The notes beneath the pieces are model-generated. The model was not told where the DNA came from, ran no database searches, and was given only the letters and a program-made list of their open reading frames with translations. Shown here piece after piece: positions 8,533-37,192 of a DNA stretch of 39,414 nt. Position numbers and translations under genes: made by a program. The first letter of the stretch is position 1; every line of letters starts with the position of its first letter. Origin of the DNA: Candidatus Nomurabacteria bacterium (GTDB lineage: Bacteria > Patescibacteriota > Minisyncoccia > Phycocordibacterales > CAIJYI01); assembly GCA_943356445.1 (NCBI GenBank), contig CALREZ010000001.1:79818-119231 (forward strand). The letters are read 5' to 3'.

Positions 8533-8613
8533 ATGGTAGTAAAGAAAAAAGCAGCAAAGAAGGCTGTAAAGAAAGTCGCAAAGAAACCGGCAAAGAAAGC
8601 GAAGAAAAAATAA
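8533..8613 (+). CDS. 26-aa lysine/alanine-rich histone-H1-tail-like peptide
   Basis: ATG...TAA translates MVVKKKAAKKAVKKVAKKPAKKAKKK; AAGGAGG at about 8508-8514; strong terminator directly after. Absent from the ORF track because of its length. Confidence 0.65.
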   Translation: MVVKKKAAKKAVKKVAKKPAKKAKKK

Positions 8614-8633
8614 CTTCAACTTCTTAGCACTGA

Positions 8634-8668
8634 ACAAAACTCTCCGAAAGGAGAGTTTTGTTTTTTTG
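8634..8668 (+). terminator. Strong intrinsic terminator
   Basis: ACAAAACTCTCC-gaaa-GGAGAGTTTTGT (12-bp stem) followed by a T run. Confidence 0.9.
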
Positions 8669-8678
8669 TTGCCCCTTT

Positions 8679-8726
8679 GTCCCCGAGGATAGTCCTCAGT
8701 AGCTACTGAGGACTATCCTCGGGGAC
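8679..8726. repeat. Perfect 48-bp palindrome, no spacer
   Basis: GTCCCCGAGGATAGTCCTCAGTAG followed immediately by its exact reverse complement CTACTGAGGACTATCCTCGGGGAC. Confidence 0.95.
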
Positions 8727-8788
8727 GGAAACTCTGTTTTTCACCCTTTTTTTATGCTATGATAGGCCTATTGTAAATACCAAAAAAC

Positions 8789-11281
8789 ATGTCATTTTTA
8801 AAGAAGATATTCGGAGATGAGAACGTCAAAGCGCTGAAAAAAATTCGGCCGATCATTGAGAAGATCAATTCTCTGGAAGAAGAAATACAAAAATTGCCAG
8901 CAGAAGCGTTTCCTCAAAGAACCGCTGATTTTCGCGCGCGATTGGAAGCGGGAGAAACGGAAGACGATATCTTGCCGGAGGCTTTTGCCCTCGTTCGCGA
9001 AGCGGCGAAGAGAACGCTCGGCGAACGGCATTATGATGTCCAATTGATTGGCGGCATTGTTTTGCACCAGGGGAAAATTTCCGAGATGAGAACGGGAGAA
9101 GGAAAGACTCTCGTGGCGACGCTTCCCGCATATCTCAATGCTTTGTCGGGAAAAGGCGTTCATGTCGTTACTGTTAATGATTATCTCGCGCGCCGCGATG
9201 CGGTATGGATGGGGCAAGTATTTTCTTATCTCGGAGTTTCCGCTGCCGTTATCAACCATGAATCTTCTTACTTGTACGATCCGAAACATCAGGAATCAGA
9301 TGAGGAAAGAGACGAGCTTGGGTCTTTCAAGGTTATCTATGATTTTTTGCGTCCGTGTTCCAGACAGGATGCCTACCTGGCGGACATTACGTATGGAACA
9401 AATAGCGAATTCGGATTTGATTATCTTCGCGACAATATCGCTTATGCTCCGCAACAACTCACGCAGAGAGGATATAATTATGCTCTCGTGGATGAGATAG
9501 ACTCCATCTTGATAGACGAAGCGAGAACCCCGCTTATCATTTCTTCCACAACGATAGATTCGGAAGATCTTTATGTTACTTTTGCCGGAATTGCGCGCAA
9601 TCTGAACGAAACGGAAGACTATGAAGTGGATGAAAAACTGAAAGCGGTTACTCTTACCGATTCGGGGATCACCAAGGCGGAAAAAGCGCTCGGCGTGGAA
9701 AATATCTATACCGAAAAAGGAATAAAATATGTTCATCATTTGGAAACGGCGGTTCGCGCAAAAGCGCTTTTCCATAAAGACAAGGAATATGTCGTAAAAG
9801 ACAACGAGGTCATGATCGTAGATGAATTCACTGGTCGCGTTCAACCGGGACGAAGATGGTCGGAAGGTTTGCATCAGGCGATTGAAGCGAAAGAAGGAGC
9901 AAAGATTGAAAAGGAATCAAAGACGGTCGCTTCCATTACCTACCAGAATTATTTCCGTCTCTACAAAAAACTTTCCGGAATGACCGGTACGGCCATGACG
10001 TCGTCCGAGGAGTTCTATAAAGTCTACGGACTTGAAGTCGTAACCATACCGACCAATAGAGGAACGGCGCGTATAGATCAGACCGACCTTATCTTTCAGA
10101 CGGAAGTGGGGAAATTTACCGCCATCGCCCGAAAGGTGCGAGAACTCCACGACGCGGGCCAGCCGGTTTTGATCGGTACCGCTTCCATTGAAAAAAATGA
10201 GTTGCTCTCCATTTTTCTTGAAAAAGAAGGAATTCCGCACGAAGTATTGAATGCCAAAAAACACGAACAGGAAGGGGAAGTTATCGCTCAGGCGGGAAGA
10301 AAGAGCGGCGTGGTTATCGCTACCAATATGGCGGGACGCGGAGTGGACATCAAACTTGGAGGAAATCCTCATACGAAAGAGGAATACGAGGAGGTGAAAA
10401 GTTTGGGAGGATTGTATGTTATTGGTACGGAACGTCATGAGGCTCGCCGTATTGATAATCAGCTTCGCGGACGTTCGGGAAGACAGGGCGATCCCGGAGA
10501 AACTCAGTTTTACGTATCATTGGAAGACTCTTTGATGCGCGTTTTTGCCGCAGATACCATTAAAAAATTAATGGGCCGTTTCGGCATACCCGAAGATGAG
10601 GCGATACAAAATTCCATGATTTCGCGTTCGTTGGAATCTGCCCAGGAGAAAATAGAAGGATTCCATTTTGACGCGAGAAAGAGCGTTTTGGAATATGACG
10701 ATGTCATGAGCCATCAGAGAAAGATCGTTTATGCGAGAAGAAGAAAAATGCTTCTTTCGGATCGGGAATATATTCAAACGCTTATGGCGGATCTTGAAAG
10801 CGTGAACGAGGAAGCGAAAACCATTCTTGAAGAAAAACAAAAGGCGCTTGGAGAAGAAATTTTCTTGGAGGCGCTTCGCCGGATTGCTTTGCAGTCCACC
10901 GACATGCTCTGGATGGATCATCTGGAAATGATGGATTACTTGAGAAATTCCGTACGCCTCCGCGCTTACGGACAGCGCGATCCTTTGGTGGAATACAAAA
11001 AAGAAGGACTCAGGTTGTTTAGAGAGATGGAAGAAGCTTGGAAAGAGAATATCATTCAATTTATAAAGAACATAGATACCGATGTGCTCGCCGCAGAAGA
11101 ACGCCGAATGGAAGAAGCGAAACTCCAAATGGAACGGGCGGTTATTGAAAGCGGGGCTCAGGAAGAAGGAGGCGGTATGATTTCTATCGCCCCGAGAGAT
11201 GATCAAGGGCATAAAATAGGAAGAAACGACCCTTGCTGGTGCGGAAGCGGAAAAAAATTCAAGCACTGCCACGGACAATAA
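8789..11281 (+). CDS. secA: Protein translocase subunit SecA
   Basis: MRTGEGKTLVATLPAYLNAL, VDEIDSILIDEARTPLIIS, GRSGRQGDPG, C-terminal zinc motif CWCGSGKKFKHCHG. Confidence 0.98.
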   Translation: MSFLKKIFGDENVKALKKIRPIIEKINSLEEEIQKLPAEAFPQRTADFRARLEAGETEDDILPEAFALVREAAKRTLGERHYDVQLIGGIVLHQGKISEMRTGEGKTLVATLPAYLNALSGKGVHVVTVNDYLARRDAVWMGQVFSYLGVSAAVINHESSYLYDPKHQESDEERDELGSFKVIYDFLRPCSRQDAYLADITYGTNSEFGFDYLRDNIAYAPQQLTQRGYNYALVDEIDSILIDEARTPLIISSTTIDSEDLYVTFAGIARNLNETEDYEVDEKLKAVTLTDSGITKAEKALGVENIYTEKGIKYVHHLETAVRAKALFHKDKEYVVKDNEVMIVDEFTGRVQPGRRWSEGLHQAIEAKEGAKIEKESKTVASITYQNYFRLYKKLSGMTGTAMTSSEEFYKVYGLEVVTIPTNRGTARIDQTDLIFQTEVGKFTAIARKVRELHDAGQPVLIGTASIEKNELLSIFLEKEGIPHEVLNAKKHEQEGEVIAQAGRKSGVVIATNMAGRGVDIKLGGNPHTKEEYEEVKSLGGLYVIGTERHEARRIDNQLRGRSGRQGDPGETQFYVSLEDSLMRVFAADTIKKLMGRFGIPEDEAIQNSMISRSLESAQEKIEGFHFDARKSVLEYDDVMSHQRKIVYARRRKMLLSDREYIQTLMADLESVNEEAKTILEEKQKALGEEIFLEALRRIALQSTDMLWMDHLEMMDYLRNSVRLRAYGQRDPLVEYKKEGLRLFREMEEAWKENIIQFIKNIDTDVLAAEERRMEEAKLQMERAVIESGAQEEGGGMISIAPRDDQGHKIGRNDPCWCGSGKKFKHCHGQ

Positions 11282-37159: not shown

Positions 37160-37192
37160 AAAATCCCCGAGGGCGGTCCTCGGGGATTTTTT
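37160..37192 (+). terminator. Intrinsic terminator
   Basis: AAAATCCCCGAGG-gcggt-CCTCGGGGATTTTTTT. Confidence 0.9.

Follow-up and report, generated by a model that had tools for sequence, protein, structure and literature searches.

A single-copy perfect palindrome before secA in a Patescibacteria genome, best read as a stray relative of RAYT-associated hairpins

REP sequences, which occur singly or as inverted dimers (REPINs), are short dispersed palindromes linked to RAYT (TnpA-REP) genes, i.e., IS200-like transposase genes flanked by the same repeats (PMC3116915, PMC2817692, PMC6006769). Palindromes with both feet of the hairpin ("double foot" REPs) can come from the central deletion of an inverted dimer (PMC6006769), and a transposase gene flanked by such repeats is called a REPtron or a TIRtron in the literature (PMC6006769, PMC3733652). 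The latter source describes TIRYT genes, which are RAYT-like genes lying between inverted repeats, some of them double-palindromic and self-complementary, with dispersed copies that are moderately abundant and often dimeric. Most knowledge of REP-type repeats comes from Proteobacteria and similar cultured groups, and the literature that we found did not include Patescibacteria. For the palindrome analyzed here, the most likely identity is that of a stray relative of RAYT-associated palindromes, present in one copy, rather than that of a REP in the strict sense.

The window, that is, the whole stretch of DNA analyzed, comprises 39,414 nucleotides of a Candidatus Nomurabacteria genome (G000:C1:79818-119231; genome of 1.05 Mb in 34 contigs), whose SecA has its closest matches in named records among Patescibacteria, Paceibacterota, and Kaiserbacteria MAGs. 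At positions 8679 to 8726 it carries a perfect, strandless palindrome of 48 bp, made of a 24-nt arm (8679 to 8702, plus strand) and its exact reverse complement (8703 to 8726, plus strand). The arms are 100% complementary with a gap of 0 nt, as stated in the preliminary description, and no other inverted repeat of the window is as strong. The left half consists of GTCCCC, an inner dyad (GAGGA-TAG-TCCTC), and AGTAG. Each half alone folds its own dyad, as had been proposed, and the palindrome contains two hairpins in inverted orientation, the dyad and its mirror. Its core is AGGATAGTCCT...AGGACTATCCT, with AGGATAGTCCT at positions 8686 to 8696 (plus strand) and the inverted second copy at 8709 to 8719 (minus strand). 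The RNA fold of positions 8630 to 8745 was predicted to have 25 pairs (z = -12.5), and the anticipated lengthening of the hairpin by wobble pairs was borne out by extra pairs that include G-U; as single-stranded DNA, the element was predicted to fold at -26.7 kcal/mol (z = -11.6). The palindrome is real and far beyond chance. The expected count of zero-gap 24-nt arms, which we estimated from base composition, is about 1e-8 in 1.05 Mb, and palindromes with a loop of zero or one nucleotide and arms of at least 11 nt were absent (0) from block shuffles of the genome, versus 52 per Mb observed. It is not unique in kind, and several zero-gap perfect palindromes of similar or greater length occur in its own genome. 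The list of perfect inverted repeats with arms of at least 11 nt and loops of at most 10 nt, made from the genome fetched in stretches, has 269 members, of which 25 are loopless and the longest is 60 bp.

The palindrome is preceded by the terminator of a gene for a Lys/Ala-rich peptide and followed by the promoter of secA. The peptide gene (8533 to 8613, plus strand) encodes 26 amino acids with no Pfam match; many genomes of the order have a short, histone-tail-like Lys/Ala(-Arg)-rich peptide gene of this kind immediately ahead of secA. In the window, the gene is followed by an intrinsic terminator (8632 to 8671, plus strand), and the earlier statement that a T-rich terminator just upstream already ends the previous gene proved right: a hairpin at 8632 to 8663 continues into a T tract. 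The view of the palindrome as an extra element also stands, since this complete terminator precedes it. Farther downstream, an extended -10-like element, TGcTATGAT (8755 to 8763, plus strand), follows a T tract ahead of secA (8789 to 11281, plus strand); it was recognized by eye and is absent from the list of the consensus scan, and similar motifs (T-tract ATGnTAnnnT) are found before secA in relatives. In the congener G002, whose SecA is 83% identical in its N-terminal part, the order of peptide gene, terminator, promoter, and secA is kept and the palindrome is absent, the interval being TATAGGGGTTACTGATTCGACTTCAGAAACTG. In most of the other inspected secA loci having the peptide gene, the peptide terminator runs directly into the secA promoter. 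The palindrome is missing in the closest relative with a comparable locus and is therefore specific to this lineage, either as a gain or as the product of a remaking of the interval, with the empty site in G002 not definable to the base because of the divergence of this relative.

The 48-mer is single-copy in its own genome. The exact half-palindrome was absent from the GTDB 220 contig collection and from the viral collection. Searches of the window identified no Rfam family and no tRNA, and a near-match to the palindrome in G003 was discarded because it lies within a coding region and is not palindromic.

The core connects the palindrome to a family of repeats, a likeness that was found by following the data and was not predicted beforehand. 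Family palindromes, e.g., GAATTACACAGGGTAGTCCTGTGTACACAGGACTACCCTGTGTAATTC in the sampled part of G002, have the core AGGGTAGTCCT, from which AGGATAGTCCT is 1 base away. Just 7 of the 269 palindromes of G000 (arms of at least 11 nt) are within two mismatches of AGGGTAGTCCT, with the element before secA at one mismatch, and none of the palindromes of G005, G034, the Escherichia coli sample, and other bacteria came within two mismatches. A shuffled arm reached a core match as good as the observed one in 0.03% of the trials. The pattern AGGRTAGTCCT was counted 10 times in G000, 22 in G001, and 12 in G002 (reversed control pattern: 2, 0, and 0), mostly in inverted pairs or single hairpins. Its counts were near background in most of the 297 genomes of the order and raised in a few (e.g., G114, G130, and G131). 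Taking every fetched occurrence of the core in six genomes, unselected (24 distinct windows), the five bases on each side of the core pair at 55%, versus 20 to 32% when slid by one to three bases, and this value was equalled in 1 of 5,000 permutations. Six stem pairs are changed on both sides in a hand-picked set of 12; this set takes in two hairpins with a GCGGT loop and leaves out the weakly pairing copies except the one before secA. Such co-variation of the stems around a constant tip would be expected if the hairpin itself were recognized. Compared with the clear members, the palindrome before secA has the loop ATAGT instead of GTAGT and one further inner flanking pair versus 3 to 10. Its outer arms (GTCCCC) are unmatched by the inner arms, unlike those of the double hairpins beside RAYT genes, and, of the 384 genomes of the class, G000 alone has the ATAGT arrangement.

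Members of the family are associated with transposase genes. Two family palindromes flank an open reading frame (ORF) of 243 amino acids on G002:C8, and two palindromes, the upstream one with the loop TACGC instead of GTAGT, flank an ORF of 222 amino acids on G000:C25. Both proteins carry YHIY.RG and MPNHFHLL and match Pfam Y1_Tnp (PF01797) above the cut-off, and they score 39.2 and 38.8 bits, under the cut-off of 80, with the NCBIfam model of REP-associated tyrosine transposases (NF047646). Flanked Y1_Tnp-matching ORFs occur on G000:C25, G001:C6, and G002:C8, and GTAGT members flank a RAYT-type gene in G001, G002, and G130, as well as in G000 with one variant loop. Among the 23 Y1 genes of seven genomes, 9 have a palindromic word of 12 nt or more that is repeated in the upstream and downstream flank, versus 1 of 150 control genes comparable in size. 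The palindromes differ from one Y1 gene to another, and several further Y1 genes have flanking palindromes that are imperfect or partly shared. No RAYT gene with the stem or the loop of the palindrome before secA was found. Integron attC-like arrays, considered for the spacing of about 700 bp on G002:C8 and G000:C25, were rejected, the gene between the palindromes being a Y1 transposase.

This family resembles the REP/REPIN systems in its short palindromes, which are dispersed as single units or inverted dimers, and in its link to an IS200-like transposase gene flanked by the same repeats. REPs differ in having GTAG (or GTGG) at the foot of the hairpin, whereas the GTAG of the present family (ATAG before secA) is in the loop, and in their hundreds of copies, whereas the core family has tens of copies or fewer (10 to 22 per genome) and the palindrome before secA has one. 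The likeness to the TIRYT/TIRtron arrangement extends to the RAYT-like genes between inverted repeats, to the double-palindromic and self-complementary repeats, and to the moderate abundance and frequent dimers of the dispersed copies (PMC3733652). The GGGGWSAS motif of that system is not clearly present here, and a AGGGTAGTCCT tip with free stems is not among the features described in the accessible part of that work. The palindrome before secA is tied to such a TIRYT-type family through its core alone, and the gene between repeats and the solo copies are seen at the level of the family. The mobile-repeat family reached from this palindrome is little described.

Other relatives lie in the same genome. 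The preliminary description had noted a resemblance to the rplY terminator TCCCCGAGGGCGGTCCTCGGGG, which is indeed present (37164 to 37185, plus strand; core AGGGCGGTCCT at 37170 to 37180), and the likeness goes further than claimed. The rplY hairpin and the palindrome are members of one group of hairpins that carry an AGG-(R-Y-R-G-T)-CCT tip; in G000, four hairpins of this group have a CCGAGG stem in common. The stem CCCCGAGG is common to the palindrome and to the single hairpins at rplY, C19:19260, and C27:12355, where it carries the related loops GCGGT, GTAGT (followed by a T tract), and GCAGT, respectively. An origin by inverted duplication of a terminator-like word had been suggested. Duplication followed by loss of the center fits the anatomy, but the terminator-like character of the word is probably secondary, since RAYT-type genes are flanked by hairpins that have this tip on other stems. 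Some repeats of the family serve as terminators.

We therefore consider it reasonably probable that the palindrome represents an orphaned, REPIN-like and non-autonomous element, in which a RAYT-associated hairpin is present as an inverted dimer. In the genus, IS200-like single-strand transposase genes (HUH/Y1, RAYT type) are flanked by double-hairpin palindromes with a constant AGG-GTAGT-CCT tip, and copies of the hairpin are scattered singly or as inverted dimers. The palindrome before secA would be one such dimer, GTCCCCGAGG-ATAGT-CCTC...GAGG-ACTAT-CCTCGGGGAC, that lost its center; two inverted hairpins without their center correspond to the route given for "double foot" REPs (PMC6006769). 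Its origin at the present site would postdate the divergence from the nearest sequenced relative. The dimer would have been placed there by a RAYT working on single-stranded DNA at the replication fork, or it would have formed when a hairpin was copied onto itself. The recognition by a RAYT, the mobility, and the order of these events are inferred. Located behind the terminator of one gene and ahead of the promoter of the next, the element would disturb neither, and it is probably a genomic passenger and not a secA switch. The practical message is modest, the palindrome being a curiosity.

More speculatively, and with a probability that we judge low, Patescibacteria of this order may have a distinct RAYT-type system, in which the fixed tip AGG-RYRGT-CCT is recognized and the stems change with the resident transposase. 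Each lineage would then rewrite the palindromes that occupy fixed sites (argS, perhaps secA), and some palindromes would turn into terminators of the host. If true, such a fixed-loop, free-stem family would reveal which features of the substrate a RAYT-like enzyme reads, and it would show parasitic repeats supplying regulatory hairpins to very small genomes. The argS gene holds an in-frame family palindrome at the same place in two species (G000:C9:25256-25299, i.e., L162:5256-5299, and G001:C4, i.e., L331:1100-1129). The stems differ (ACAAGG in G000 and ACACAGG in G001), and each matches palindromes beside the Y1 transposase of its own genome, as would result from palindromes changing in concert or from more than one insertion at a single site.

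The main rival to a RAYT-associated dimer is template switching at a terminator hairpin. A terminator-like hairpin (or CTACTGAGGACTATCCTCGGGGAC) would have been copied back by a plain replication error, with no transposase, and would persist where the SbcCD nuclease is missing, a history that we regard as possible but doubtful. The palindrome is perfect and gapless, its genome has many unrelated perfect palindromes, and the corresponding place in G002 has TTACTGATTCGAC, with a faint likeness to the right half. Palindromes with a loop of zero or one nucleotide and arms of at least 20 nt reach 7.6 per Mb in G000, versus 0 in each of the samples from E. coli K-12 (300 kb), G005 (400 kb), and G034 (192 kb). 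SbcD was above the cut-off in 1 of the 60 genomes searched (G034) and not in G000 (control: 13 of 14 known genomes); SbcC was above it in none, with a cut-off passed by just one control genome. The lack of SbcCD would make long palindromes tolerable, but this link is a correlation only, because G005, also without SbcD, has few palindromes, and the SbcD-bearing G034 was sampled over 192 kb alone. Moreover, a replication error leaves unexplained the match at 10 of 11 bases to the core of RAYT-flanking palindromes, and it does not account for the relatedness of the loops in the other hairpins with the CCGAGG stem. In G034:C18 (L200), the SbcD-matching open frame of 1,270 amino acids also matches SbcC, and a fusion is possible.

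A functional cis element (an operator of secA, a second terminator at the gene end, or an insulating RNA stem) is improbable. The palindrome is about 30 nt upstream of the -10-like element of secA, and its RNA hairpin would be very stable if read through. However, the full stem was not scored as a terminator by the scan and has no T tract directly behind it (the downstream sequence is GGAAACTCTGTTTTTC), and an identity as a plain intrinsic terminator was rejected for this reason. The family members at C19:19260, C2:50874, and rplY combine a hairpin and a T tract, as terminators do, whereas the palindrome lacks the adjacent tract and stands instead behind a complete terminator. A matching palindrome was found at this place in 0 of 29 other inspected secA loci, and the usual direct passage from terminator to promoter, as well as the absence from G002, also argue against such an element. 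The presence of the palindrome is explained without any secA function, and a role in secA expression is unsupported. Although the assembly is a draft of 34 contigs, an assembly or chimera artifact, including the fold-back, is most improbable, because both flanks are unique and ordinary (the peptide terminator and the secA promoter, syntenic with G002) and 48 bp is shorter than a read; the same class of palindromes also occurs in independent genomes.

Several other repeats were observed in these genomes. The word CTTGGCGGTTTCACCGCCAAG occurs 11 times in G000 (e.g., C6:32633, C12:18977, C21:8733, and C7:2589), in both flanks of the Y1 gene of G002:C41, and downstream of the Y1 gene at G000:C6:32164. 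Three copies of CTTGGAGGCGAAGCCTCCAAG lie around and inside one Y1 transposase gene (G000:C6:31930, 32148, and 32427). Two more dispersed palindromes of up to 60 bp have a CATATG center (mostly CGCATATGCG), with no linked gene identified, at G000:C7:3283, C13:20498, C15:13013, and C15:13750 and at C2:32473, C19:4143, and C9:36109. Finally, long perfect inverted repeats start at what appear by eye to be tRNA 3' ends at G000:C3:24679, C2:33887, and C6:31146, and they are followed by a similar tail, approximately AGCnAGTGAACYGCT.
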